32,023 nucleotides of DNA from Lacunisphaera sp. (GTDB lineage: Bacteria > Verrucomicrobiota > Verrucomicrobiia > Opitutales > Opitutaceae): the NCBI GenBank assembly GCA_029945855.1, contig JAQSDJ010000116.1:1-32023 (forward strand), given 5' to 3'. Below are positions 8,003-27,807 of the stretch, piece after piece; positions within the stretch are counted from its first letter, which is position 1, and each line of letters opens with the position of its first letter. The notes under the pieces were generated by a model. That model was given only the letters and a program-made list of their open reading frames with translations. It ran no database searches and was not told the origin of the DNA. A program made the translations under genes and the position numbers.

Positions 8003-8842
8003 CTACGCCCGCGCCCAGGCCCGCGCCAGCTGGCTGCGCAGGATGACGGCATCGGGCCACGCCGGCGGCAGGCCGGAGATGTTGTAGCCGCCGCCCGCGG
8101 GCGCATACGGCCCCATCTCGGGACAGGCGAACATCGTCTTGCCCTTGTTGCCGCGGCCCTGCTTCCACAGCCGCATCAACGCCTCGACGAAGACCAGGTA
8201 GCTCTTCACCTCGGGAGTGAGCGATCCCTTGCAGGTGACCGGCACCTGGCAATGGTGGCCGTTGAACGGGCGGAAATGCACCTGCTCGCTGTTTTGCACC
8301 AACTCCGGGTGATCGAGCAGCCGCTCGATGTAATCGTCGGGGCTGAGGTGCTTGACGCACGCGAGGTGCGAGAAATCGAAGTTCATCTTGATCAGCCGGC
8401 CGGTGGCGCGGTGATAGCGCTCGGCAATCTCGTAGGTCTTCTCCGGGGTCTCGGTGCAGGTGTCGCGGTGCACCTCGAGGCAGACCACTACACCGCCGAT
8501 CTTCTCGGCCGCCTGCTCCAGCTGGAGCCAGTGTTTCGTCGCCAGCGCCGGCGGGGTGTCGTGGTCGTCGAGCTGCACGTTGATGTGGACCGCGCCCGCT
8601 TCCTTTTGCGACTTGATCAGCCGGGCGAAATCCGCGGGTTTCTGGGTGGAGACAAAACCGAGCAGGTGATGCAGGTCGTATTTCTCGGCGAGCCGCCGGT
8701 GCTCCGGCGTGAGCGCGGTCGTGATGCCGTCGAAGCCGGCGGCGGCGACGGCTTTGATCTTTTTCTCGAGGGACCACTCGGTCGCGGGCGAAGGATGCCA
8801 GCTGAGCGACCAGAGGTTGGCGATATGGGCGATGTGGGGCAT
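8003..8842 (-). CDS. Sugar phosphate isomerase/epimerase-like TIM barrel (xylose isomerase-like, AP endonuclease 2 superfamily)
   Basis: A 279-residue cytosolic TIM-barrel protein without signal peptide. The superfamily pattern is visible: KIKAVAAAGFDGI early in the barrel, the acidic strand ends CLEVHRDT and MNFDFSHL, then VHFRPFNGHH and a late CPEMGPY. These supply glutamate, aspartate and histidine ligands typical of the divalent metal site. Such proteins isomerise or epimerise sugars, or dehydrate inositol derivatives; the exact reaction is not readable. The start ATG at 8842 follows a pyrimidine-rich leader. It is divergent from the Nudix gene (91 bp gap) and convergent with the ferritin-like gene. 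Confidence 0.85.
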   Translation of the reverse strand: MPHIAHIANLWSLSWHPSPATEWSLEKKIKAVAAAGFDGITTALTPEHRRLAEKYDLHHLLGFVSTQKPADFARLIKSQKEAGAVHINVQLDDHDTPPALATKHWLQLEQAAEKIGGVVVCLEVHRDTCTETPEKTYEIAERYHRATGRLIKMNFDFSHLACVKHLSPDDYIERLLDHPELVQNSEQVHFRPFNGHHCQVPVTCKGSLTPEVKSYLVFVEALMRLWKQGRGNKGKTMFACPEMGPYAPAGGGYNISGLPPAWPDAVILRSQLARAWARA

Positions 8843-16105: not shown

Positions 16106-16939
16106 CTACATCTTCGCGGCCTGATCCGCCCATTTTTTCGGGGCCAGGCCGTGCCGCTGGCGGAACATGCGGTAGAAATGCGACAGGTCGTTGAAACCGC
16201 ACGAGAACATCACGCCGGTCACCGAGAGTTCGCCGGACCGGAGCAGCTTGGCCGCATGATCCAGCCGGCGGCCGTTGAGATAATCCCAGAAGGTCAGCCC
16301 CGCCTCCGCCCGGAACAGGTCCGTGAAGCGGTGCCGTGACAGGCCGGCGCGGGCCGCGGCCCGGTCAACGTCCCATTCGTCATGAAAGGTCTCGTCCACC
16401 TCGCGCAGGACCGCCGCCACACGTTCCGTGGCGGAGGCTCCCCCGCCCTCCGCCGGCAACCGCGCCAGCAGGACGAGCGTCTGCGCCGCCAGGGCGCGCA
16501 CCGTCACGGGTCCGCCGATGCGGGCATGCTGGGCTTCGACCATCGCCCGCCGCCACATGCCCTCCAGCCGCTGCCGGGTCGGCCGGCTGAGCACGACGCG
16601 GCGCTCCGGCAGCCGCGTGAAGGTGTTCCACAACCGGGCCAGATCCGCGTCGCCGCCGAGAAACTCGCCCTCGAGGCAGAGCAGCAGCAGCGTGGACGGA
16701 GCCAGGTCGGCGATTTCGTGCGTCACGTCCCGCGGGACGATCAGGATGCTGCCGGCCCCGGCCTCCACCACCTTGTTCCGGCGTTTTTCCCGATAAGCCA
16801 CCCGCCCGGCCAGCACGTAGATCAGCTTGTGAAAGCGGTCGGTGCGCTCGGCCATGCGGAATTCCGCCGTGTGGGCACTCTCGGCGAAGAGGACGCCATA
16901 GTCGGGCAGGGAAACCGTAATCGGGCCGGAGACGCGCAT
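16106..16939 (-). CDS. AraC family transcriptional regulator
   Basis: A protein of 277 residues from the ATG at 16939; a TTG at 16984 would add 15 residues but would place an inverted repeat typical of an operator inside the gene. The N-terminal half is cupin-like (HKLIYVLAGRVAYREKRRNKVVEAGAGS-type strand pattern, split at about residues 36-63, then VPRDVTHEIADL). The C-terminal 95 residues are the double helix-turn-helix domain (DRAAARAGLSRHRFTDLFRA, then GVMFSCGFNDLSHFYRMFRQ, ending HGLAPKKW). Such proteins sense small molecules, often sugars. It is divergent from the corrinoid methyl-transfer run, whose first gene begins 99 bp away, so it is the obvious candidate regulator of it. Confidence 0.9.
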   Translation of the reverse strand: MRVSGPITVSLPDYGVLFAESAHTAEFRMAERTDRFHKLIYVLAGRVAYREKRRNKVVEAGAGSILIVPRDVTHEIADLAPSTLLLLCLEGEFLGGDADLARLWNTFTRLPERRVVLSRPTRQRLEGMWRRAMVEAQHARIGGPVTVRALAAQTLVLLARLPAEGGGASATERVAAVLREVDETFHDEWDVDRAAARAGLSRHRFTDLFRAEAGLTFWDYLNGRRLDHAAKLLRSGELSVTGVMFSCGFNDLSHFYRMFRQRHGLAPKKWADQAAKM

Positions 16940-16957: not shown

Positions 16958-16979
16958 CGATTGCCCGATCTGCCAATCG
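16958..16979. promoter_or_regulatory. Inverted repeat CGATTG-N10-CAATCG, candidate operator
   Basis: A 6 bp perfect inverted repeat with a 10 bp spacer lies in the divergent region between the AraC-type gene (ATG 16939) and the methyltransferase gene (17039). The arm-to-arm spacing is about two helical turns, suiting a dimeric regulator. No confident -35/-10 boxes were found. Confidence 0.35.
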
Positions 16980-17038
16980 AGCAAGCCCTAAGCGCCAAGA
17001 CACCGGCCCCGGAGATTTGCTAAGTTCATTGACCCCCC

Positions 17039-18103
17039 ATGATGCCCACCCCTCCCCATCCGACTGCGACCCGTGCTGAAGTGGAAAATATCCTGCGCTG
17101 TGGCCCGGCGCGCTCCGTCCCCCTTTTCCTGCCGGCGATCTATGAGCACAAGGCCTGGTTCATCCAGAGCACGCCATCCGCCATCTCCCGCGACGCCGAC
17201 CTTCTGACCCGCGCCCTGCTGGCCGAATACGAGGCGATCGGCCCCGACGCCCTCGCGATCGGCGTCGACGTCTACAACCTCGAGGCCGAGGCGGTCGGCT
17301 GCACCGTGACCTTCTACGAGGGCGACGACACCTCGATCCCGGGCATCAAGCCGGGCAACCACCTCCTCCACGCCGGCGACGACCTTTCGCAGCTCAAGCT
17401 GCCCAATCCGCTCAAGGACGGCCGCATGCCGGTGAACATTGCCGCCGCCCGCAACCTCCGGCGCGCCCTGGGCGACGACTACTGGCTGCGCGGGGCGATT
17501 TCCGGGCCCTTCTCGCTCGCGATCTCCCTCGTCGGCGCCGAGACCCTGTTCCTCGCCTGCCTCGACCAGCCCGACTGGGTCCGCGGCGTCCTCGATTACT
17601 CCGGCCGCCTCATCAAGGAGTTCGCCAAGGCCTACATCGACGCCGGCGCCGAGCTCATCGTGTTCGACTCCCAGGCCTCACCCGAACTGCTCTCGCCCGA
17701 GATGTATGAGGAATTCGTCCTGCCCGTGACGAAGGAACTCGTGCAATGGTCCGCTACCCAGGGTGTGCGTGACCTGCCGCTCATCATCGGCGGCAACACC
17801 GTGCCCATCGCCGGGCTGCTCGCGCAGACCGGGGCGAACAACCTGCTCTGCGACTTCACGGCCGACTTCGACGAGTGGTCCGCCGTCGCCCGCGAGCACG
17901 GCCGCTCGCTGCGCCGCAACATCTCCCCCCGCCTCATCGAGACCGGCACGCCCGAGGCGATCTACGAGGTCGCGCTGCGCGAACTCCGCCGCGGCCGCGA
18001 CCTGCCCGGCTTCATCATGGGCACGGCCGTCATCCCCTTTGGCACCCCCACCGCGAACGTCCTCGCCATCAAGCGGGCCTGCCTCGACGGCGCCCGCGCC
18101 TGA
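17039..18103 (+). CDS. UroD-family (MtaA/MtvB-like) corrinoid methyltransferase, zinc ligands apparently replaced
   Basis: A 354-residue protein of the uroporphyrinogen decarboxylase/methyltransferase superfamily. Followed directly by a corrinoid protein, it most likely transfers a methyl group from a substrate to that corrinoid (methyltransferase I), rather than acting in haem synthesis. Superfamily features are LIVFDSQASPELLSPEMYEEF (about 203-223), PLIIGGNTVPI (about 248-258), NISPRLIETGTPEAI and the C-terminal GTAVIPFGTPTANV. In zinc-dependent members the middle motif is HxCGNT and the last carries a cysteine before P-x-GTP. Here those positions read I, G and A, so the usual H, C, C zinc site seems absent. 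The ATG at 17039 is followed at once by a second ATG. It is the first gene of a long co-directional run; the substrate is unknown. Confidence 0.82.
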   Translation: MMPTPPHPTATRAEVENILRCGPARSVPLFLPAIYEHKAWFIQSTPSAISRDADLLTRALLAEYEAIGPDALAIGVDVYNLEAEAVGCTVTFYEGDDTSIPGIKPGNHLLHAGDDLSQLKLPNPLKDGRMPVNIAAARNLRRALGDDYWLRGAISGPFSLAISLVGAETLFLACLDQPDWVRGVLDYSGRLIKEFAKAYIDAGAELIVFDSQASPELLSPEMYEEFVLPVTKELVQWSATQGVRDLPLIIGGNTVPIAGLLAQTGANNLLCDFTADFDEWSAVAREHGRSLRRNISPRLIETGTPEAIYEVALRELRRGRDLPGFIMGTAVIPFGTPTANVLAIKRACLDGARA

Positions 18104-18121
18104 GTCCTTAAAACTTTCCCC

Positions 18122-18766
18122 ATGCCCGACTACGCCCAAATCAACCAGTATCTCTATGAAGGCAACGCCAAGGAGGTGGATCGCCTCGTGCGCGAAGCCC
18201 TCGCCGAGGGCCGCGCCGTCGACGAGGTGCTCAACCTCGGCCTGATCTCCGGCATGGCCGTCGTCGGCGAGGACTTCAAATACAACGTCCTCTACGTCCC
18301 CGAGGTCCTCGTCGCCGCCCGTGCCATGAAGGCCGGCATGGCCGTCCTCAAGCCCCTGATGCTGGCCGACGCCGCCAACAACCCGCCGCGGGGCACCGTC
18401 GTCATCGGCACCGTCAAGGGCGACCTCCACGACATCGGCAAGAACCTCGTGTGCATGATGGCCGAGGGGGCCGGCTTCAAGATCGTCGACCTCGGCGTGG
18501 ACCAGCCGGTGGAGAAATACCTCGAGGCCTGCCGCGCGCACAAGGCCGAGATCGTCGGCATGTCCGCCCTCCTCACCACCACCATGCCCTACATGAAGGT
18601 CGTCATCGACGCCTTCCAGGCCGAGCCCGACCTCGCCCACGTCAAGCTCGCCATCGGCGGCGCGCCGGTGAACAAGATGTTCGCCGACGAGATCGGCGCC
18701 GACGGCTACGGGCCCGACGCTTCCTCCAGCGTGGAATTGTTCCTCCGCTTCATCAACGCCGCCTGA
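18122..18766 (+). CDS. Corrinoid (B12-binding) methyl carrier protein
   Basis: A 214-residue carrier of the MtaC/MtvC/MtbC type. Residues about 1-85 form the helical cap domain (B12-binding 2 type), and about 90-214 the Rossmann-like cobalamin domain. The cobalt-ligating histidine is H103 in D101-L-H103-D-I-G106, the DxHxxG motif; SALLTTTM and GGAPVN are the other expected cofactor contacts. It shuttles the methyl group between the UroD-like enzyme 18 bp upstream and the pterin methyltransferase downstream. Length and motifs are complete. No sequence signal tells which methyl donor is used. Confidence 0.95.
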   Translation: MPDYAQINQYLYEGNAKEVDRLVREALAEGRAVDEVLNLGLISGMAVVGEDFKYNVLYVPEVLVAARAMKAGMAVLKPLMLADAANNPPRGTVVIGTVKGDLHDIGKNLVCMMAEGAGFKIVDLGVDQPVEKYLEACRAHKAEIVGMSALLTTTMPYMKVVIDAFQAEPDLAHVKLAIGGAPVNKMFADEIGADGYGPDASSSVELFLRFINAA

Positions 18767-18789
18767 GCGGCCGACCAATCCCCGCCGCC

Positions 18790-20385
18790 ATGACCCTGCG
18801 CGAAAAGATCGAAGGCACGCGGGATTTCGTCCTCGGCGTCGAGCTCGTCTCCACCCGGGGCACGGTCACCGAGACCCGCGCCGCCAAGACGGTGAGCTTC
18901 GCCGACGAGCTCTCCGCCGACGACCGCGTCGACTGGGTTTCGATCACCGACAACGCCGGCGGCAATCCCCAACTGGCCCCCGCCGCCCTCGGCGGGCTCA
19001 TCCGGGCCGCGGGCCGCGAGGTCGTCGTCCATCTCTCCTGCAAGGATTTCAACCGCAACGCGCTCGAGTCCGAGGCCTGGCATCTCTCGAGCCAGGGCCT
19101 GCACAACCTGCTCGTGCTCACCGGCGACTATTCCGGCGCCGGCATCCACGGCGGTGCCAAGCCGGTCTTCGACATCGATTCCATCGGGCTGCTCACGCTG
19201 CTGGCCGAGATGAACGCCGGCCTCGACGTCACCCGCCCCGGCGCGAAGAAGACCAGCCGTCTCGCCGGCACGGAGTTTTTCCCGGGCTGCGTCGTCACCA
19301 ACTTCAAGCTCCACGAGAACGAGGTCGTGCCCCAGCTGCTCAAGCTGGAGAAGAAGCTCCAGTGCGGCGCCCGCTGGGTCATCAACCAGATCGGCTACGA
19401 CTCGCGCAAGATCCACGAGCTCCTCGTCTGGCTCGCCGCCCGCGGCTGGGGCCACGTGCCCGTCATCGGCAACGTCTACGTGCTCAATCCCGGCGTCGCC
19501 CGCCTCTTTCGCACGCAGACCATCCCTGGCGTCGTCCTCTCCGACGAGCTCGCCGCCCTGTGCGAGAGCCATGCCGCGTCTCCCGATCGAGGGAAAGCCT
19601 TCTTCCTCGAGTTCGCCGCCAAGCAGCTCGCGATCTACCGCGGCTTGGGCTATCGCGGCGCCTACCTCGGCGGCGTCCACTCCATGGCGGATGTGGACCG
19701 CGTGCTGACGATTGAAAAAAGATTCGCCCCGGACGACTGGCGGCAGTTCGCGAAAGAAATCCGTTTCTCCCGCCCGGGTGAATATTTCGTCTACGCCGAG
19801 GATCCGGCCACCGGCCTGGCCGACCCCACCCGCGCCAGCGGGACCTCGGCGCCAGCGCGCACCGGCGGCGCGTTCACCTACCGTTTCTCCAAACTCGTGC
19901 ACGGCCTCATGTTCACCGAGGGGCGTGGCCTGTGGAATGCCGGCAAGAAGATCACCGGCGCCGCCCGCGACCCGCGGCAGGGCCCGGCCTGGCTGCGTTT
20001 CGCCGAGCACGCCGGCAAGTCCGTGATGTTCGGCTGCAAGGACTGCGGCGACTGCTCCCTCCTCGACATCGCCTACCTCTGTCCCGAGTCCGACTGCGCC
20101 AAGAACCAACGCAACGGCCCCTGCGGCGGCACCCGCGACGGCAAGTGCGAGGTCGCCGACTTTGATTGCATCTGGTCGCGCGCCTATGACCGCCTGAAGG
20201 CCGAGGGCCGGGCCGACGCCCTGCTCGCGCACGCCCCGGTGCTGCAGGACCAGAATCTCCGCGGCACCTCAAGCTGGGCCAACACCTGGCACCACCGCGA
20301 CCATCTCGCCCACCCGACCACCATTCCCCCGGCGCAGACGCCGATCCCCGTCACCGGTCGCCCGGCGAATCCTCCCCCCACATGA
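18790..20385 (+). CDS. Methylenetetrahydrofolate reductase (MetF) fused to an MTHFR_C cysteine-rich domain
   Basis: A 531-residue two-part protein. Residues about 1-310 are a MetF-like FAD barrel (ELVSTRGTVTETRAAK near the start, then VSITDNAGGNPQ, LLVLTGDYSG and GARWVINQIGYD). Residues about 370-490 match the MTHFR_C region, with cysteines between about 415 and 454 (CKDCGDCSLLDIAYLCPESD, then NGPCGGTRDGKCEV), suited to iron-sulfur or zinc binding. In acetogens this C-terminal type occurs in MetV, partner of MetF; here both appear in one chain. In this context the enzyme probably oxidises methyl-THF made by the next gene, although reduction is possible. The ATG at 18790 lies 23 bp after the corrinoid gene. 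The last 45 residues are Pro-rich and unconserved in appearance. Its TGA overlaps the next ATG. Confidence 0.88.
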   Translation: MTLREKIEGTRDFVLGVELVSTRGTVTETRAAKTVSFADELSADDRVDWVSITDNAGGNPQLAPAALGGLIRAAGREVVVHLSCKDFNRNALESEAWHLSSQGLHNLLVLTGDYSGAGIHGGAKPVFDIDSIGLLTLLAEMNAGLDVTRPGAKKTSRLAGTEFFPGCVVTNFKLHENEVVPQLLKLEKKLQCGARWVINQIGYDSRKIHELLVWLAARGWGHVPVIGNVYVLNPGVARLFRTQTIPGVVLSDELAALCESHAASPDRGKAFFLEFAAKQLAIYRGLGYRGAYLGGVHSMADVDRVLTIEKRFAPDDWRQFAKEIRFSRPGEYFVYAEDPATGLADPTRASGTSAPARTGGAFTYRFSKLVHGLMFTEGRGLWNAGKKITGAARDPRQGPAWLRFAEHAGKSVMFGCKDCGDCSLLDIAYLCPESDCAKNQRNGPCGGTRDGKCEVADFDCIWSRAYDRLKAEGRADALLAHAPVLQDQNLRGTSSWANTWHHRDHLAHPTTIPPAQTPIPVTGRPANPPPT

Positions 20386-21317
20386 CCACCATTCCCCGCA
20401 TTCGCATCATCGGCGAATTGATCAACAACGCCTACGCCCGCGCCCGCAAGTCCTGGGAGGCCCGCGATGTCGCCGGCTACCAGCTCCTCGCCAAGCTCCA
20501 GTCCGACGCCGGCGCCGATTACGTGAACCTGAATGTCGACGGCACGCAGCGCGTGTCCGTGCGCATCGGAGAGATGCTCGAATTCCTGCCCAAGGTCATC
20601 CCCGCCATCCAGGCCGCGACCGATGTGCCGATCAGCTTCGACAACCCGAACATCGAATACCACAAGGTCGCCCTTCGCCATTTCGACCGGTCCAAGTCCC
20701 GCGGCAAGCCGCTCTTCAACTCGCTGGCCGCCTCGCGCCAGGACCTGCCGGCCATGATCGAGCTCATCCGCGAGCACGACATGCGCTGCATCGTGATGGC
20801 CTCCGAATGTTTCCTGCCCAACGGGAAAACCAGCCAGAGCCTCGACCCGCAGCAAAGCTACCAGGCCGTGAAGCATTTCGCCGACCTGCTCGTCACGCAG
20901 GCGAACCGCACCCTCGACGACATCATCGTGGACCCCGGCCTCGCCCCCGTCGGCGCCGACACCTACGGCCTGGTCAACATCGGCCTCGACACCATGCGGC
21001 TGTGCACCGCCGACCCGCACCTGCGCGGCATCCACTTCTCGGTCGGGCTCTCCAACTTCGCCTGGGGCACGCCCAAGACCATCAAGCCGCTCCTCGAGCG
21101 CGCCTACCTCACCCTCGGCGCCCGCGTCGGCCTCGACTTCGCCCTCGCCAACGTCGAGGCCAATTCCCTCCCGCTGCCCGATGACCACCCGCTCGTGGAC
21201 AAGCTGGAGGCCGCGCTCCAGACTGGCCGCGTGATCAACGGCGAGTCCGTCGAGGATGCCGGCTACCGCCAGGCCTCCTCGATCATGGATCTGTGCTCCG
21301 AATACATCGAGCAATGA
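20382..21317 (+). CDS. Methyltetrahydrofolate:corrinoid methyltransferase (pterin-binding, AcsE/MtvA-like)
   Basis: A 311-residue pterin-binding (DHPS-like) TIM barrel, the family that transfers methyl groups between methyl-THF and cobalamin in carrier proteins. Expected motifs are IGELINN at the N-terminus, SDAGADYVNLNVDG (about 47-60), PISFDNPNIEY (about 84-94), DDIIVDPGLAPVGADTYG (about 179-196) and HFSVGLSNFAWG (about 218-229). It would act as methyltransferase II, moving the substrate-derived methyl group to THF. It starts with ATG overlapping the previous stop (ATGA) and its own stop overlaps the next start the same way, so it is translationally coupled on both sides. Dihydropteroate synthase is excluded by context and by these motifs. 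Confidence 0.92.
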   Translation: MTTIPRIRIIGELINNAYARARKSWEARDVAGYQLLAKLQSDAGADYVNLNVDGTQRVSVRIGEMLEFLPKVIPAIQAATDVPISFDNPNIEYHKVALRHFDRSKSRGKPLFNSLAASRQDLPAMIELIREHDMRCIVMASECFLPNGKTSQSLDPQQSYQAVKHFADLLVTQANRTLDDIIVDPGLAPVGADTYGLVNIGLDTMRLCTADPHLRGIHFSVGLSNFAWGTPKTIKPLLERAYLTLGARVGLDFALANVEANSLPLPDDHPLVDKLEAALQTGRVINGESVEDAGYRQASSIMDLCSEYIEQ

Positions 21318-22621
21318 GCGACCCGGCCGCCCCCGCCTCCCCCGCCGCTCTCGCTTCCGTCCTCGCGCCACACTCCGGCGCGGTGTGGCTGCGCGTCGGC
21401 CGGCTCTTCACCGGCCGCGACACCGCCATCCTGTCGGACGCGCACCTCGTCTACGACGGCACGCGCATCCTCCACGCCGGCACCGCTGCACCCGCCGCCG
21501 GTTTGCTGCGTCCCGGCCAAACCGCGCCCGACCTCCACCTGCCCGCGCACACCGCCCTGCCCGGCCTGATCGACGCGCACACCCATCTCTTCCTCGAGGG
21601 GGGCGAGGAAAATCCTGCCGCCCGCGCCGACTACCTGAAGCTGCCCGAGGCGGAATTCCATGTCCGCGCCACCGCCCGGCTCGCCCGGCTCGTCGCCTTG
21701 GGCGTGATCGCGGTCCGCGAGGCCGGCGACAAGGCCGGCGTCGGTCTCGCCCTGCAGGCCCGCTGGCGTTCCGCCGCCCGCGGCGTCATGCCCTATGTGG
21801 ACGCGCCCGGCGCCGCCATCAACCACCAGGGCCGCTACGGCTCGTTCATGGCGCGACCGACCGAGGAGCAGGGCTCGCCCGAGGCCACCGTCGCCGAGCG
21901 CAGCGCCGCCGGCGCGCACCGCATCAAGCTCCTGGCCACGGGCATCATCAATTTTGAAAAAGGCGCCGTCACCGCCAAGCCCCAGATGCCCCCGCCCGAA
22001 CTGACGCAGTTCGCCGACGCTGCCCGGGCCCACGGCAGGCAGACCATGGTCCACTGCTCCGGCCACGACGGCGTGGCCAACTGCATCGCCGCCCGCGTCG
22101 ACTCGATCGAGCACGGCTACTTCATCGACGACGACCAGCTCGCGCAGCTGCGCGACCTCGACCTCGCCTGGGTGCCGACCTTCGCGCCCGTCCAGTATCA
22201 GGTCGACCACGCCGCTGCGCTCGGCTGGAGCGATCTCATCCGCGACAATCTCCGCCGCATCCTCGAGGGCCACGCCCGCAGCCTCGCCCGCGCCGGCGCC
22301 CTCGGCGTGCGCCTCGTCGCCGGCAGCGACTCCGGCTCGCACGGCGTGCCGCACGGCTGGGGCTTGATCAAGGAACTGGAACTCATGCAGCAGGCCGGTC
22401 TCACCGCCGCACAGGTGCTGCACAGCGCGACCGGCGCCAGCGCCGCGCGCCTGGGCTACGCGGAGGAATTCGGCACGCTCACCGCCGGCGCCCGGCCGCG
22501 CTTCCTGCTCACTGCGCACGCGATCCTCCACGACGTCGGCCACCTGCGCCGCCCCAAGGCCGTGATTTTTGATGGCGTCATCCACCCCGGCGGGGACGAT
22601 CCCGCCGTGCCCGGACTCTGA
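21314..22621 (+). CDS. Metal-dependent amidohydrolase
   Basis: A 435-residue amidohydrolase-superfamily enzyme of the imidazolonepropionase/prolidase-like branch. The metal site looks complete: H89 and H91 in DAHTH, a lysine in HRIKLLATG, histidines in MVHCSGHD and SIEHGYF, and an aspartate in VAGSDSGSHG. The N- and C-terminal strands form the usual small beta-sandwich. It would hydrolyse a C-N (amide or ring) bond in the cytoplasm. Its place inside the corrinoid run, with ATGA overlap at its start, suggests it prepares or processes the methylated substrate or product; nothing in the sequence reveals which. The start at 21314 is chosen for this overlap. Confidence 0.85.
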   Translation: MSDPAAPASPAALASVLAPHSGAVWLRVGRLFTGRDTAILSDAHLVYDGTRILHAGTAAPAAGLLRPGQTAPDLHLPAHTALPGLIDAHTHLFLEGGEENPAARADYLKLPEAEFHVRATARLARLVALGVIAVREAGDKAGVGLALQARWRSAARGVMPYVDAPGAAINHQGRYGSFMARPTEEQGSPEATVAERSAAGAHRIKLLATGIINFEKGAVTAKPQMPPPELTQFADAARAHGRQTMVHCSGHDGVANCIAARVDSIEHGYFIDDDQLAQLRDLDLAWVPTFAPVQYQVDHAAALGWSDLIRDNLRRILEGHARSLARAGALGVRLVAGSDSGSHGVPHGWGLIKELELMQQAGLTAAQVLHSATGASAARLGYAEEFGTLTAGARPRFLLTAHAILHDVGHLRRPKAVIFDGVIHPGGDDPAVPGL

Positions 22622-22642
22622 GCCACCACCGCGCCCCCACCG

Positions 22643-24289
22643 ATGCCCGTCACCGTCTCCATCAACTCGCAGGTCGCCGTCTTCCCGGCGGGCGTGTCGC
22701 TGTTCGAGGCCGGCGAGAGCCTCGGCCTGAACGTCCCGTCTTCCTGCCACAAGCTGGGCAAGTGCCGCGAATGCCTGATGGAGGTCATCGAGGGCATGGA
22801 CCACCTCACCCCGCGCGTCGCATCCGAACAGCACCTGAAGGGCGAGTTCCGCCTCTCCTGCTGCAGCCGCCTGCTGGGCGACACGGGCACGGTGCGCGCC
22901 CACACCCTCCGCCGCGCCACGATGCACATCGAGGATGGCGCGATGAACCTGCCCCCGCAGGCGCGGCTTGAGCGGCCCGATCCCGCCGTCACCCGCGACG
23001 GCGACCGCATTCTCCTCGACGGCCGGGAAATCTCCCGCGTTCCCGGTCCGCTCCTCGGTCTCGCCCTCGACCTCGGCACCACGACCGTCGTCGTGCGCGC
23101 CCTGGACCTGGAGTCCGGCCGCATCGTGGCGAGCACCTCCTTCGAGAACCCGCAGCGTTTCGGCGGCACCGACGTGATGGCGCGCATCCAATACGACACC
23201 GACCATGCCGGCCGCCTGCTCCAGCGGACGCTCCTCGGCTACCTTTCCCGCGCCATCGCCGGGCTGCCCATCGATCCGCTCCGCATCTTCGAGATCGTCG
23301 CGGTGGGCAACACCACCATGCGCGACCTCTTCCTCGGGCTCGATGTCCGCAGCATCGGCCAGCGACCCTATTGGTCGGGAACCGAGCAGGCTTACCGTGC
23401 CGGCACGGCCACCACGACCGCCGTCACGCTCCGCGCCCGCGACCTGCGCCTGCCCTGCCATCCGGAGGCGCGGCTCTACGCCCTGCCGCTGGTCGGCGGC
23501 CACGTCGGCGGTGATGCCGCCGCCTGCCTCCTCGCGGTGGCGCCCCACCTGGGCGACGAGATCGTCGCGATCATGGACATCGGCACGAACACCGAGCTGT
23601 TCATGGGCAACCGCCACAAGCTCCTTGCCGCCTCCTGTCCCGCCGGCCCGGCCTTCGAGGGCCGCGCCATCAGCTGCGGCATGCCCGGTCTCGACGGGGC
23701 CATCGAGAAGATCCGCCTCCACGACGACGACACCCCGCCCGAGATCCGCGTGATCGGTGGCCTGAAGCCCGAGGGCGTCTGCGGCTCCGGCTTGATCGAC
23801 CTGCTGGGCGAACTGCGCCGCACCGGGCGCATGAACGAATACGGCCGCTTCGAGGACGGCTCGGCCGAGTTCACCGTCCACGCCGAAACCGGCCTCACCT
23901 TCCACGAGAGCGACATCAACGAGCTCGCCCAGGCCAAGGGCGCCAACGTCGCCGGCCTCCTCACCGTCGCCAAGACCTACGGCATCACGCTCGGCCAGCT
24001 CGACCGCTTTTATCTCGCCGGCGGCTTCGGCCGCCACCTCGACCTCGCCGCGGCCAAACGCATCGGGCTCATCCCGGACCTGCCCGACGACAAGATCGTC
24101 CAGGTCGGCAACGCCGCGATCGAGGGCGCCTGCCTCGCCCTCCTGTCCGTCACCCGCCGCCGCAGTCTCGAGGAACTGGTGAAGGGCATCCGCCATGTCG
24201 AGTTGGAGACCGACCCGGGCTTCTTCGATCATTTCGTGCTGGGCTGCCAGTTCAACCCGGTCGGCTCGGCCCCGGAGGCGCGGTCATGA
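22643..24289 (+). CDS. RACo-type reductive activator of corrinoid proteins (2Fe-2S ferredoxin + ASKHA ATPase, DUF4445)
   Basis: A 548-residue protein that would use ATP and a low-potential electron to reduce inactive Co(II) in the carrier back to Co(I). The N-terminal ferredoxin domain has the plant-type cluster pattern C35-x5-C41-x2-C44, with C73 or C74 as the fourth ligand. The rest is the RACo/RamA-like domain: ALDLGTTTVVV (phosphate 1 of the ASKHA fold, about 146-156), VAVGNTTMRDLFLG, VGGHVGGDAAACLLA, IMDIGTNTELF (about 312-322) and YLAGGFGRHLDL. Such activators occur with corrinoid O-demethylases and the Wood-Ljungdahl pathway. It follows the amidohydrolase by 21 bp, and its stop overlaps the next start. 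Confidence 0.92.
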   Translation: MPVTVSINSQVAVFPAGVSLFEAGESLGLNVPSSCHKLGKCRECLMEVIEGMDHLTPRVASEQHLKGEFRLSCCSRLLGDTGTVRAHTLRRATMHIEDGAMNLPPQARLERPDPAVTRDGDRILLDGREISRVPGPLLGLALDLGTTTVVVRALDLESGRIVASTSFENPQRFGGTDVMARIQYDTDHAGRLLQRTLLGYLSRAIAGLPIDPLRIFEIVAVGNTTMRDLFLGLDVRSIGQRPYWSGTEQAYRAGTATTTAVTLRARDLRLPCHPEARLYALPLVGGHVGGDAAACLLAVAPHLGDEIVAIMDIGTNTELFMGNRHKLLAASCPAGPAFEGRAISCGMPGLDGAIEKIRLHDDDTPPEIRVIGGLKPEGVCGSGLIDLLGELRRTGRMNEYGRFEDGSAEFTVHAETGLTFHESDINELAQAKGANVAGLLTVAKTYGITLGQLDRFYLAGGFGRHLDLAAAKRIGLIPDLPDDKIVQVGNAAIEGACLALLSVTRRRSLEELVKGIRHVELETDPGFFDHFVLGCQFNPVGSAPEARS

Positions 24290-24855
24290 GCGTCCTCTGG
24301 CAAACCACCAACGATCATCCGATCGTCGGCCAGCGCGACTACAAGCGCTTCCTGCGTTTCCCGCCCAGCCGCACCTTCGAGGGCCCGATGGCCGACAACG
24401 CCGCCTGGGCCCGCGACTGGTTCGCCGCGCACGCCCGCCCGTGGTCCGCCGCGATCCGCGCCGATGACACCGTGCGCACCCTGGCCGCCCCGCACTTCCC
24501 GGGCGTCACCGTCCTGACCCTCCTCGTGGCCAGCGCCGGGCCCGAGGCGGAGGCCGAGGCCGCCGTCCGCTGGGCCGCGCACGAACCCGACCGGTATTAT
24601 TTCCTGGAGTGCTACGCCGCCGCCACGGTCGAGGCTCTGCTCGCTGCCGGCCGCCGCCGCGTCGGCGCGGACAAGCATCTCTGCCCCGGCTACCCGGGCT
24701 GGCCCATCACCGACAACCACGCGCTCCTCGCCGCCCTGCGCGTCGCGAACGCCTTGCCCGGCCCGCTCACCGTGCTGCCCTCCGGCATGCTCAGTCCAAA
24801 AAAATCCCAGCTCGCCGTCTGCGCCCTGTGCACCGAACCGGTTTCCGCCCGATGA
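24286..24855 (+). CDS. Small protein resembling the MetH reactivation domain
   Basis: A 189-residue cytosolic protein. The segment YYFLECYAAATVEALLAAG (about 105-123) and then LCPGYPGWPITDN (about 132-144) and PSGMLSPKKSQLAVCAL (about 165-181) resemble the SAM-binding activation domain of cobalamin-dependent methionine synthase, which has a helix rich in ExxxxxxVE, an R-x-x-PGY segment and an S-x-x-M-x-P-x-x-S segment. I infer a stand-alone relative that may bind SAM or dock on the corrinoid protein. This is recognition by pattern only. It is coupled to its neighbours by 4 bp overlaps on both sides. Confidence 0.55.
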   Translation: MSVLWQTTNDHPIVGQRDYKRFLRFPPSRTFEGPMADNAAWARDWFAAHARPWSAAIRADDTVRTLAAPHFPGVTVLTLLVASAGPEAEAEAAVRWAAHEPDRYYFLECYAAATVEALLAAGRRRVGADKHLCPGYPGWPITDNHALLAALRVANALPGPLTVLPSGMLSPKKSQLAVCALCTEPVSAR

Positions 24856-25337
24856 CCCCGCCCGCCACCACCAGCATACCTGTCGTCTCCCCCTATGTGT
24901 TTCCCGCACGCGCCCTGCGCCGCTGGGCCGGCGAAAACCTGACCCTCACCCCGCGCCCCGACGGTGGTCTGGAGGCTGTCTTCCGGCTGGAGGGCAGCAC
25001 CTGCGCCAACATCGCGTTTTTGCTCCTCTACCGCGTCACCCTCGCGCCCGCCGCCGCCGGCCGCCGGATCGAGGCGATGAACTGCGCGCCCGCCCCCTAC
25101 GACGAGGGCCACACCCGCATGTGCAGCTGGCAGGAAAACGCCGAGGCCATCGCCGCCACGATGCGCGACGAGACCCCGCTTCTCGGGCTGCCGCTCGACA
25201 CCGTGCTCGCCTGGCGTCCGCAAAAATCTCCCGCCGGCTGCTTGTGTGCCCAACCCAGCCGCCACTACAAATGGCAGGCGGTGCTCGAGACCCTCCATTT
25301 CACCCTCCACCAAACCCCCGCCGCTCCCTCCTCATGA
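24852..25337 (+). CDS. Conserved-context hypothetical protein with five cysteines
   Basis: A 161-residue protein that I do not recognise. It has no signal peptide or membrane segment. Cysteines occur in STCANIAF, MNCAPAPYDEGHTRMCSW and GCLCAQPSRHYKW, together with histidines close by, so metal or cluster binding is possible. The start at 24852 overlaps the previous stop as ATGA, and its stop overlaps the following ATG, so it is clearly an integral member of the run even though its function is unknown. Base composition matches its neighbours. Confidence 0.6.
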   Translation: MTPPATTSIPVVSPYVFPARALRRWAGENLTLTPRPDGGLEAVFRLEGSTCANIAFLLLYRVTLAPAAAGRRIEAMNCAPAPYDEGHTRMCSWQENAEAIAATMRDETPLLGLPLDTVLAWRPQKSPAGCLCAQPSRHYKWQAVLETLHFTLHQTPAAPSS

Positions 25338-25690
25338 AAATCGAACTCGCCCCTGAAAATCCCGCCGCCCCCGACATGCTGCGTCCCGAGAAGAACGATC
25401 GCTCCGGGGTCGGTGTGCATTACGTGGAGGCCTACCTCAAGCCCCTCAAGGCCGGCATCGTCCTGCCTGACGGCGTGAAATTCTCCGCCAAGCGCCGCGG
25501 CCTGAAGGTCACCTTCGCCCTCGGCACCGCCAAGGGCGAAGGCCTCATGCGCCGGCTCGACGTGAGCAAGGATCCCGTCGTCATGCTGCGCGCCGCGCTC
25601 GACGAGGCCGGGGCCAAGCTCGGCGTCAAGCTCACCGCCGAGAACGGGAAGCTGGTGCTCGAGTATACGCCGGCGGTCCCGCAGGCCTGA
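25334..25690 (+). CDS. Small hypothetical protein in the corrinoid run
   Basis: A 118-residue soluble protein of alpha/beta appearance without cysteine. Notable stretches are GVGVHYVEAYLKPLKAGIVL and VKFSAKRRGLKVTFALGTAK. The family is not recognised. Its ATG overlaps the previous stop (ATGA), and its TGA at 25688-25690 overlaps a possible CTG start of the MFS gene (25687). Position suggests a role with the methyl-transfer system, but nothing in the protein states it. Confidence 0.6.
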   Translation: MKIELAPENPAAPDMLRPEKNDRSGVGVHYVEAYLKPLKAGIVLPDGVKFSAKRRGLKVTFALGTAKGEGLMRRLDVSKDPVVMLRAALDEAGAKLGVKLTAENGKLVLEYTPAVPQA

Positions 25691-26997
25691 TCCCCCAACC
25701 TGCCCCGCCTCCCATTACAACCTCGCCCACCTCCAAGATCCGCGGCCTGCGCTGGTATATCGTCGCCCTGCTGGCGCTCGCCTCCGAGCTGAACTACCTC
25801 GACCGGCAGGCGCTGTCGGTGCTCGCGCAGACGATCCAGGACGAACTCGGTTTCACGACGATCGAGTATTCCTACATCACCTCGGCGTTTCTGCTGAGCT
25901 ACACGGTGATGTATCTGGTGAGTGGCCGGCTGGTGGACTGGCTCGGCAGCCGCCGGTCGTTCTCGATCTTCGTGAGCGGCTGGTCGGTCGCGACGATCCT
26001 GCATTTTTTCGCCCGCACGCCCTTTCAGTTTGCCTCCTGCCGGTTCCTGCTCGGCGCCACCGAGCCGGCCAATTTCCCGGCCGGGGTCAAGGCGGTCTCG
26101 GAATGGTTCCCCATGCGCGAGCGGGCGCTGGCGGTGGGACTGTTCAACGCCGGCACCGCCGTCGGCGCCGGCCTGGCGGCCCCCGTGGTCTCGTTCATCG
26201 CCCTCACCCTCGGCTGGCGCTGGGCCTTTGTCGTCACCGGCGGGCTCGGGTTCATCTGGGTCATTGTCTGGCATTTCTTTTACCACGCCCCGCAGGATCA
26301 TCCGCGCCTCTCCGCGGAGGAAAAAACCCTGATCCTCGACGGCCGGTCCGCGGATGCCCCGCCGGTGCCGATGCTCGGCTGGTCGAAAATCCTGCGTATG
26401 CGCGCCACCTGGGCCTGTGTGATCGCCCGTATGCTGACCGACCCGATCTCCTATTTCTTCATCTTCTGGACGCCGAAATACCTCCAGCAGGAGCAGGGTT
26501 TCAACCTGGCCGACATCGGCAAGTTCAGCTGGATCCCCTTCGTCGCCTCGGCCCTGGGCAACATCTGCGGGGGCCTCGTGCCCAACCGTCTCGTGCGCAT
26601 GGGCTGGACCGTCAACCGCGCCCGCATGTCGGTCATGCTGCTGGCCTCGCTCGCGATGCCCGTTCTCTGCTTCTCGATCGCCCGCGCCACCGTCCCGGCC
26701 CTCGCCCTGACCTGCATCAGCCTCGCCATGTTCTGCCACGCGGCCTGGGCCAACATGACCTTGCCCGCCGAGATCTTGCCAAGCAACGCGATCGGATCGG
26801 TGACCGGCCTCGCCGGCGCGATGGGCGGCGTGATGGGCATCCTCACGCAGACCGCCATCGGTTGGACGGTGCAGAACCTTTCCTTCACCCCCGTCTTCGC
26901 GGTGGCCGCCTTCATGCACCTCACCGCCCTGGCTTCCGTCACCTTGCTGATCAAAAGAATCGGCCAGCGCCCGCCGGAAGTCAGCTCCGCGACCTAA
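25687..26997 (+). CDS. MFS transporter, ACS (hexuronate/anion:cation symporter)-like, non-standard start
   Basis: About 427-436 residues with 12 predicted membrane helices. The motif LNYLDRQALSVL in helix 1 is typical of the ACS family (ExuT-like, sugar acids and related anions). GRLVDWLGSRRSF between helices 2 and 3 is the MFS signature. No in-frame ATG, GTG or TTG precedes helix 1; the first is a GTG at 25819, which would cut off the conserved helix 1 (RWYIVALLALASELNYLDRQ). Translation therefore probably begins at CTG 25687, overlapping the previous stop (CTGA), or at ATT 25714. The CTG form is used here. nagB-like and nagA-like genes follow closely, suggesting import of a sugar-derived acid or amino sugar; the solute is not established. 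Confidence 0.82.
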   Translation: MIPQPAPPPITTSPTSKIRGLRWYIVALLALASELNYLDRQALSVLAQTIQDELGFTTIEYSYITSAFLLSYTVMYLVSGRLVDWLGSRRSFSIFVSGWSVATILHFFARTPFQFASCRFLLGATEPANFPAGVKAVSEWFPMRERALAVGLFNAGTAVGAGLAAPVVSFIALTLGWRWAFVVTGGLGFIWVIVWHFFYHAPQDHPRLSAEEKTLILDGRSADAPPVPMLGWSKILRMRATWACVIARMLTDPISYFFIFWTPKYLQQEQGFNLADIGKFSWIPFVASALGNICGGLVPNRLVRMGWTVNRARMSVMLLASLAMPVLCFSIARATVPALALTCISLAMFCHAAWANMTLPAEILPSNAIGSVTGLAGAMGGVMGILTQTAIGWTVQNLSFTPVFAVAAFMHLTALASVTLLIKRIGQRPPEVSSAT

Positions 26998-27021
26998 ACC
27001 GGATCCCCCTCTCTGAACGCC

Positions 27022-27807
27022 ATGTCGCACGAAGCCCTGCCCAAAATCGAAATTCACCCCACCCGCACCGCGATGGGCGCCGCCTCGGCGCAGCATTTTC
27101 TCACCCAGGTCCGCCGCGTGCTCGCGACGAAGCCGGTCTGCCGGGTCATCTTCGGCTGCGCGCCCTCGCAGGATGAATTCTTCCAAGGCCTCCTCGCCGC
27201 GACCAAGGCCGAGCCGGCGCTCTGGTCCCGCGTGGAGGTTTTTCACATGGATGACTACGTCGGCCTGACGGAGCAGGCCCCGCAAAGTTTCCGCCATTAC
27301 CTGCGCACCCACTTCCTCGACCACGTGACCGTGGCGCGCTTTCATCCCATTGTGGGCGAAGCGCCCTCCGCGGACGCCGAGGCCGCCCGCTACGGCCAGT
27401 TGCTGGGCGAGGCGCCCATCGACGTCATCGGCATGGGTTTGGGGGAGAACGGCCACATTGCCTTCAACGACCCGCCGGTCGCGGACTTCGCCGACCCCCA
27501 ACTGGCCAAGGTGGTCGCGATGGACCAGACCTGCCGGCAGCAGCAGGTGAACGACGGTTGTTTCCCCGATCTTGCCGCGGTGCCGCGCCTGGCCATCACG
27601 ATCACGGTGCCGGTCTTCGCCCGCGCCGGCAGCCTCGTCTGCACCGTCCCCGACAGCCGCAAAGCCTGCGCCGTGCGGGGCGCGCTGACCGACCCGGTGG
27701 GACCGGCCTGTCCCGGCACTCTCTTGCGCATTCACCCGAATGCGGCACTGTTCCTCGACCGCGATTCGTCTGTGCTGCTTGATGCCCTGACCATCCCGGA
27801 CGCCTAA
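27022..27807 (+). CDS. Glucosamine-6-phosphate deaminase-like protein (NagB family)
   Basis: A 261-residue NagB/6-phosphogluconolactonase-fold protein. Family motifs are VFHMDDYVGL (D77/D78) and GMGLGENGHIAFNDPP (137-152), with the catalytic histidine H145. Compared with E. coli NagB, the aspartate two residues before the histidine (D141) is N143 here and the glutamate after it (E148) is D150. It therefore belongs to a divergent clade, and deaminase activity is probable rather than certain. It would convert a hexosamine phosphate to a ketose phosphate. It starts 24 bp after the MFS gene, and its TAA shares one base with the nagA-like ATG. Confidence 0.82.
   Translation: MSHEALPKIEIHPTRTAMGAASAQHFLTQVRRVLATKPVCRVIFGCAPSQDEFFQGLLAATKAEPALWSRVEVFHMDDYVGLTEQAPQSFRHYLRTHFLDHVTVARFHPIVGEAPSADAEAARYGQLLGEAPIDVIGMGLGENGHIAFNDPPVADFADPQLAKVVAMDQTCRQQQVNDGCFPDLAAVPRLAITITVPVFARAGSLVCTVPDSRKACAVRGALTDPVGPACPGTLLRIHPNAALFLDRDSSVLLDALTIPDA

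Follow-up and report, generated by a model that had tools for sequence, protein, structure and literature searches.

Which methyl group does a nine-gene corrinoid system of a verrucomicrobium remove, and what becomes of it? The question is raised by positions 17039-25690 of a stretch of 32,023 nucleotides from Lacunisphaera sp. (family Opitutaceae), called the window below. A preliminary description of this run observed it correctly and interpreted it rightly in outline, while its treatment of the substrate class and of the accessory genes needs to be changed. From comparison with related genomes we consider it reasonably probable that the nine genes form an operon for corrinoid-dependent O-demethylation with its own start of C1 oxidation, a methoxylated aromatic acid being the most likely donor. 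The observations behind this reading are gene content, conservation of order, a shared upstream element, swaps of the demethylase, a paralogous gene chassis and the predicted fold of one accessory protein; the substrate class is a prediction from neighboring genes.

The nine-gene run and its conservation in Opitutaceae

Nine adjacent frames, all open and all on the plus strand, fill positions 17039-25690, and Pfam confirmed the protein families first proposed for six of them. The run begins with a UroD-type methyltransferase of 354 aa (UroD-1, 17039-18103; Pfam URO-D, 135 bits; NCBIfam mtaA_cmuA, 120 bits against a cutoff of 235), the predicted first methyltransferase (MT1), and a corrinoid carrier of 214 aa (18122-18766; Pfam B12-binding and B12-binding_2; PDB 1y80, 198 bits), whose DLHDIG at residue 101 conforms to the D-x-H-x-x-G cobalamin motif of corrinoid carriers. 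There follow a MetF-like domain fused to an MTHFR C-terminal cysteine domain, DUF5981 (18790-20385; Pfam MTHFR, 35 bits, and DUF5981, 88 bits), predicted to oxidize methyl-tetrahydrofolate (methyl-THF), and a pterin-binding methyltransferase (20382-21317; Pfam Pterin_bind, 44 bits; PDB matches including MetH 1q7m and 4o0q), the predicted second methyltransferase (MT2), acting from methyl-carrier to THF. A prolidase/ochratoxinase-like amidohydrolase (21314-22621; Pfam Amidohydro_1, 86 bits) and a RACo-type corrinoid activator with a [2Fe-2S] domain (22643-24289; Pfam RACo middle, RACo C-terminal and Fer2) precede three accessory genes, g7 (24286-24855), the Cys-rich g8 (24852-25337) and the small g9 (25334-25690), for which Pfam and NCBIfam searches returned no match. 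The C-x5-C-x2-C of RACo, the CxxCxxC of the MetF tail and the HxH of the amidohydrolase are likewise intact. At five of the eight junctions the genes overlap by 4 bp (ATGA), as had been said of most of them, and the remaining three are gaps of 18, 23, and 21 bases; near the MetF junction, ATG 18790 was the sole in-frame start codon found. By phmmer the MetF fusion had no relative in the PDB at 1e-3, and the top NCBIfam matches of the carrier, glycine-betaine and methylamine corrinoid proteins, were below cutoff. Large reverse-strand open reading frames (ORFs) at 21263-24232 and 25432-27735 were considered as genes and are read instead as shadow frames in GC-rich sequence, because the plus-strand frames carry the families.

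At the level of families, MT1, carrier, MT2 and activating enzyme are thus encoded together, as in the Mtv, Odm, and Mto gene sets, and the families and motifs bear out the complete methyl-transfer set feeding tetrahydrofolate that had been proposed. The order UroD - carrier - (MetF) - pterin methyltransferase does recall the mtvBCA order reportedly found in Moorella, as the preliminary description held; the likeness to MtvB itself rests on gene order. In the pathway that these families suggest, a divergent AraC-family regulator would sense the substrate and open the operon from an operator at 16963-17000. UroD-1 would catalyze Ar-O-CH3 + Co(I)-carrier -> Ar-OH + CH3-Co(III)-carrier, the ether most likely being a methoxylated aromatic acid, after which the pterin-binding enzyme would pass the methyl group from CH3-Co(III) to THF and the MetF fusion would convert the resulting CH3-THF to CH2-THF. 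RACo and g7, perhaps with S-adenosylmethionine, would restore oxidized cobalt to Co(I). The amidohydrolase, g8, and g9 are members of an eight-gene chassis, found again in xylan loci beside a different UroD.

The nine-gene order is not chance. A profile search (E <= 1e-90) found UroD-1 in 52 of 252 Opitutaceae genomes, and 48 stretches were mapped around these genes, with further ones added later. A scripted count gives 19 copies, in 18 genomes, of the full nine-gene series in unchanged order on a single contig, the window being one of them, so that the possibility of these genes never co-occurring in this order elsewhere falls away. For this count 21 loci were listed and two (L141 and L142) removed as repeats of L100 and L078; in two of the copies (L099 and L100) a contig end truncates the UroD gene. 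A divergent AraC gene adjoins UroD in 16 of the 19. Besides these 18 genomes, the 52 comprise one with eight of the nine genes, in which no amidohydrolase was found (G204), six in which the run is split over contig ends (each counted as one operon by inference from those ends), nine with a LigM-type and three with a Rieske arrangement, G193, eight in which none of the other eight genes is linked to UroD-1, G138, and five that belong to a distant clade, whose two mapped members show 39-41% identity. G138 and three genomes of the distant clade (G210, G212, and G215) were counted with their neighborhoods left out. The host genome of the run measures 5.0 Mb in 330 contigs and is 99.1% complete. 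G193 holds an arrangement of its own (L091, 4793-9920), UroD - MetF - amidohydrolase - g7, with carrier, pterin methyltransferase and LigM all absent, in which the source of methyl-THF is not obvious.

Predicted alternative demethylases beside one AraC gene

The divergent regulator gene (16106-16939, minus strand; Pfam HTH_18, 79 bits, AraC_binding and Cupin) can be read from TTG 16984. ATG 16939 would fit better as its start, because the operator then stays intergenic and because the preceding letters recur in several relatives. The putative operator, GCCCRAWNTNCMAA-N18/19-CCAAGA (16963-17000, plus strand), consists of conserved letters upstream of the UroD-1 gene. When a slightly looser pattern was searched with zero mismatches allowed in 44 whole, partly incomplete genomes, 28 genomes had exactly one site apiece and the other 16 had none; the reversed pattern, used as a control, gave three sites across the 44. 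Coordinate comparison places 27 of the 28 sites directly upstream of UroD-1, which is expected because the pattern was derived from those upstream regions. What is informative is that no second exact site was found in these partly incomplete genomes, and that the remaining site, in G095, lies between AraC and a MetF-LigM operon lacking UroD. The genomes with a site are 14 of 25 with the nine genes, all nine with LigM, two of three with a Rieske gene, G193, one of five with UroD unlinked, and G095. In the last, the locus (L184, 9480-14120) reads AraC - MetF - LigM with a g8 homologue, and is an example of loss of the corrinoid route.

In nine of the 48 mapped loci, AraC - UroD - MetF is followed by a GcvT-family protein of LigM/DesA type in place of the corrinoid part. 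One such protein (from L034) matches PDB LigM 5x1i with 439 bits over its length, and scores 567 bits with the syringate O-demethylase (DesA) model and 525 bits with the vanillate/3-O-methylgallate (LigM) model, the equivalog cutoffs of which, 800 and 580, it does not reach. Three further loci have a VanA-like Rieske gene near UroD; in the one scanned (L037) it has the vanillate O-demethylase C-terminal domain (VanA_C). MetF accompanies the corrinoid and LigM forms and was not found in two of the three Rieske loci, a pattern that matches the expected products, since the corrinoid and LigM forms would yield methyl-THF and the Rieske form formaldehyde. A g7 homologue was found in four of the nine LigM loci and in L091, though these loci have no linked carrier.

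A tree of 59 UroD-1 proteins (L139, L140, L141, L142, and L150 were left out, several lying on the same contigs as others) gathers the LigM loci, together with L084 and L091, into a single eleven-member group that borders on nine-gene loci, and places the Rieske loci at two positions. At minimum this implies three changes among the three arrangements, a number that is approximate because 20 of 56 inner branches have less than 80% support.

One regulator would thus control alternative demethylases for one class of compounds. Because a LigM/DesA-type O-demethylase stands behind the same AraC gene, and mostly behind the same operator, in sister lineages, the substrate that had been left blank can be given a class: LigM points to methoxyaromatics. 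The LigM/DesA-type group is characterized on vanillate and syringate (PMC5547118).

A chassis shared with glucuronoxylan loci

A second carrier (66-71% identity) and a second RACo (57-64%) occur in several of the 52 genomes, the carrier also in the host genome. They belong to loci built around another UroD protein, UroD-2, in the order GH115 alpha-glucuronidase - LacI - UxuA - RACo - g7 - g8 - g9 - UroD-2 - carrier, after which come mixtures of homocysteine methyltransferase, short-chain dehydrogenase/reductase, MetF, pterin methyltransferase and amidohydrolase. UroD-2 is found in 19 of 27 loci mapped (L155, L157-L168, L188-L191, and L193, and L156 on contig G000:C124 of the host genome); UxuA accompanies it in 13 and GH115 in 8 of the 19, several of the stretches ending before the UxuA/GH115 point. 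The GH115 protein of L164 carries a glucuronoyl-esterase domain, L162 has a rearranged order, and in L161 a GH10 xylanase adjoins GH115. The predicted substrate of this second system is 4-O-methyl-D-glucuronate, which would be O-demethylated by the corrinoid route.

All eight genes of the nine-gene run other than UroD-1 recur as paralogues with UroD-2. The amidohydrolase and the three accessory proteins had been listed as additions to the standard set; they are indeed additional genes, but they are not specific to the cluster, and because they recur with UroD-2 we regard them as parts of a shared chassis rather than as substrate enzymes. The amidohydrolase occurs in 10 of the 12 UroD-2 loci that have the pterin methyltransferase and in none of the seven that lack it (19 loci), and this co-occurrence indicates that it tracks the folate branch more than the substrate. 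It was not found in L167 and L193, which have the pterin methyltransferase, where 9 and 5 kb further on were inspected. A g8 profile hit 47 of 252 Opitutaceae genomes as against 9 of 387 genomes phylum-wide, seven of these nine lying in the family; in this phylum-level search the chassis appears nearly private to Opitutaceae.

We tentatively propose, at a little less than an even chance, a portable eight-gene chassis that accepts different UroD heads: UroD-1 would serve methoxyaromatics, and UroD-2 the 4-O-methyl-D-glucuronate that GH115 releases from glucuronoxylan. The same proposal, held with the same reserve, has the chassis of the aromatic head exchanged in sister lineages for LigM or a Rieske enzyme while the regulator stays unchanged. 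If true, it would mean corrinoid sugar-ether demethylation in oxygen-capable bacteria, in which the extra proteins would serve to preserve Co(I).

The accessory proteins themselves offer some clues. For the free-standing g7, the AlphaFold model (predicted local distance difference test, pLDDT, 95.6) predicts the fold of the MetH activation domain, in agreement with the label given to it at first: the top Foldseek match is the Thermotoga maritima MetH activation domain (1j6r; E 1.4e-10, TM 0.77). A phmmer search of the PDB found no relative (best E 0.8), and hhalign of the g7 alignment against single host-genome proteins was weak, the PGYP motif aligning at low probability. A C-terminal CxxCxxxxC is present in 7 of 21 aligned g7 versions (L033, L077, L086, L087, L088, L091, and L094). 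In g8, four cysteines are invariant and a fifth nearly so among 24 sequences. Its model is confident (pLDDT 92.9), Foldseek gave no match in the PDB at E <= 0.001, and VIA-align listed 6 IscU/SufU rows among 50 at Z 3.1-4.3, other rows reaching Z 6.5; hhalign of the g8 alignment, again against single host-genome proteins, was weak and aligned the first Cys motif at low probability. Together these give a weak hint of an IscU/SufU-like arrangement. In alignment g9 is conserved. A heme-copper oxidase subunit I is encoded in 44 of 44 genomes tested, and the hosts can probably respire oxygen, so that a second reactivation route for easily oxidized cobalt would make sense.

The methyl donor and the relation to known systems

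What kind of methyltransferase is UroD-1? With the NCBIfam HemE equivalog model (303 bits) it scores 42 bits, which does not make it a HemE, and the closest PDB structure is MtaA. A profile of UroD-1 searched against the PDB at E <= 0.01 did not list CdmB (9rui), which was present in the library and is matched by UroD-2 with phmmer; placement of UroD-1 in the MtvB/OdmB/MtoB/CdmB group was compared against CdmB alone, an enzyme closely related to the O-demethylase MtoB. In MtaA the zinc motif is H-x-C with a later C; in 11 of 11 rows of the UroD-1 family alignment these positions read I/V-x-G and T, so that UroD-1 lacks the zinc ligands of the MtaA/MtbA methyltransferases. In a residue comparison without the long-branch rows L147, L152, and L153 (these stay in the tree), the distant rows L146 and L149 have C at the third place, without H-x-C. 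The missing motif does not exclude methyl transfer, since no zinc was detected in CdmB or in Moorella's O-demethylase either (PMC13222342).

The absent zinc motif and the unlisted CdmB nevertheless count against an O-demethylase role for UroD-1 in the run, and they are joined by several further observations. In the LigM and Rieske loci UroD-1 keeps 94% of the positions invariant among the nine-gene loci (1187/1260 and 394/420 cells) although these loci have no linked carrier, and the only carrier in the nine LigM genomes lies elsewhere and is 48-52% identical. Among 12 loci with more distant UroD-1 homologues outside the family (L138, L143-L149, and L151-L154), four (L138, L143, L144, and L154) have a carrier and an MtaB-like gene and eight, of which three are short, show neither. 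A ring-cleavage pathway is not shown near the LigM loci, and 11 of the 25 nine-gene genomes have no exact operator match, contigs ending there in three. The distant carriers of the LigM genomes resemble that of an mlp-like locus of the host genome (L039), and in those genomes UroD-1 either borrows such a carrier or has another role as well. The MtaB-like gene of L143 scores 418 bits (cutoff 720), the other three being 50-69% identical to it by BLAST, which suggests methanol-type chemistry in these four loci; their hosts belong to Methylacidiphilales, Ignavibacteria, and Bacteroidota, and L154 adds hexose-kinase and glycerate-kinase genes. A double cupin near some LigM loci (L077) was tried as a gentisate dioxygenase; NCBIfam gave no support, and ring cleavage is therefore not claimed. 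Fumarylacetoacetate hydrolases near LigM loci scored similarly with sugar-acid and aromatic-pathway models, all below cutoff.

Some of these points would be accommodated if UroD-1 were a constant second step acting on the same compound, with ether cleavage left to LigM, to the Rieske enzyme or, in the nine-gene loci, to a different protein of the run. UroD-1 and AraC do remain while the demethylase type varies, UroD-1 is strongly conserved in all arrangements, and it has no MtaA zinc motif. We hold this to be distinctly unlikely, however: no other plausible methyl-donor enzyme is encoded among the nine proteins, the paralogous chassis too has a UroD beside its carrier, a carrier is nearby in four of the 12 distant loci as well, and G095 has lost UroD yet keeps MetF-LigM. 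Alternatively, the same machinery could take its methyl group from an O-methylated sugar or sugar acid, as the paralogous chassis in GH115/UxuA xylan loci, once with GH10, might suggest. Within the window the run also neighbors GH123, GH3, and NagB/NagA-like genes and a galactonate-type transporter of the major facilitator superfamily (MFS), and a weakly enolase-superfamily-like gene (L075; 25 bits, Pfam cutoff 29) is found close to six nine-gene loci from two genera. A sugar donor for UroD-1 is nonetheless rather unlikely, given that a LigM/DesA-type enzyme of a group characterized on vanillate and syringate stands beside the same AraC gene and operator (PMC5547118) and that flanking genes clustered at an identity of at least 38% show no sugar-acid gene consistently linked to the nine.

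Methylamine, betaine, a thioether, chloromethane, or methanol would be a very improbable donor, even though the UroD superfamily takes in haloalkane methyltransferases (PMC13222342), the carrier's best NCBIfam matches, all below cutoff, are to corrinoid proteins for glycine betaine and methylamine, and MtaB-like genes lie near four distant UroD-1 homologues. Methyltransferase families for methylamine, betaine, and methanol (MtaB) were not found in the run by Pfam and NCBIfam, nor MtaB by BLAST in the whole window; UroD-1 lacks the zinc motif for thiol chemistry, and LigM replaces the corrinoid part behind the same operator. A methoxylated aromatic acid therefore remains our preferred donor.

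Several known systems share parts of this design. MetH contains a carrier, a pterin domain and an activation-domain fold, modules that in the run are separate proteins joined by RACo and a UroD donor enzyme. LigM/DesA with metF, presumably the gene neighborhood in Sphingobium SYK-6, likewise leads through O-demethylation to methyl-THF and then MetF, but is corrinoid-free; the nine-gene run has no LigM-type gene, whereas in sister lineages one replaces the corrinoid part. Mtv of Moorella, Odm/Vdm of Acetobacterium, and Mto of Methermicoccus and Archaeoglobus cluster a UroD-superfamily MT1, a small carrier, an MT2, and an activator as the run does (PMC8630106, PMC8359953). Compared with these, the run adds five conserved genes (the MetF fusion, the amidohydrolase, the protein of MetH-activation fold, g8 and g9) and a divergent AraC gene, its UroD-1 had no CdmB match in the PDB search, and its host genomes carry heme-copper oxidase. 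The Cdm chloromethane system shares UroD MT1, carrier, and MT2 and differs in substrate (PMC13222342). Type 1 mlp clusters resemble the run in UroD proteins, corrinoid protein, and activator, but they have several Mlps, where the run has one, and by definition no H4folate methylase within 20 kb, and they are described from obligate anaerobes only (PMC10418091). The type 1 mlp cluster was tried as an explanation of the run, and the pterin-binding methyltransferase inside the run breaks its definition. The mlp look-alike of the host genome (L039, on contig G000:C264, 10253 bases), with several UroD-like frames, a carrier (49%), and a RACo-like activator (33%), sits in a genome with heme-copper oxidases.

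Around the run, the galactonate-type MFS transporter gene (25714-26997, plus strand) is possibly cotranscribed in the host genome. Its N-terminus reads upstream of the first ATG/GTG/TTG (GTG 25819), with a possible ATT start (window 25700-25830), and no homologue was found in the 48 stretches mapped around UroD genes. In five loci of one genus (L076, L082, L083, L169, and L171), g9 and one 282-aa gene are followed by a formate-dehydrogenase-like gene of FdhF/YdeP type, a molybdopterin oxidoreductase (L169:7451-10702, the one scanned: TIGR01701, 924 bits, cutoff 582; the others are 79-89% identical). A relative of the 282-aa protein (43% identical) lies in the window at 8003-8842 (minus strand), some 8 kb upstream of the run.

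Corrinoid O-demethylation has been described chiefly in anaerobes. The systems in PMC8630106 and PMC13222342 come from such organisms. In the present case a conserved corrinoid form, with accessory proteins lacking Pfam and NCBIfam families, lies in genomes with heme-copper oxidase. As a phenomenon, corrinoid demethylation in hosts that respire oxygen has a precedent, since the MtgBCD glycine betaine/methionine system of aerobic marine bacteria is also cobalamin-dependent; its donor is an N-methyl compound, and the abstract on it mentions no UroD, amidohydrolase, g8 or g9 (PMC12478193). A literature search, with most subscription journals outside its reach, found no work joining Verrucomicrobia with O-demethylation and corrinoid or with methoxylated aromatic and demethylation, none joining methylglucuronate with corrinoid, and, among the titles listed, no bacterial enzyme that demethylates 4-O-methylglucuronate; six works do mention Opitut- names along with corrinoid and methyltransferase. 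Beyond the preliminary description, comparison of genomes thus supplies a likely class of substrate, a regulator together with its probable site, a chassis common to two systems, and a predicted counterpart for sugar ethers. The swaps between corrinoid, folate-dependent, and Rieske enzymes beside one regulator allow three routes to the cleavage of a single bond type to be compared in nature. The UroD-2 system, for its part, yields a hypothesis, open to testing, of how glucuronate could lose its 4-O-methyl group, which commonly decorates hardwood xylan. Opitutaceae, which live in soil and water, probably strip methyl groups from plant-derived compounds with a nine-gene B12 set, and the same machinery may handle methylated sugars too, given its sister set among xylan genes.

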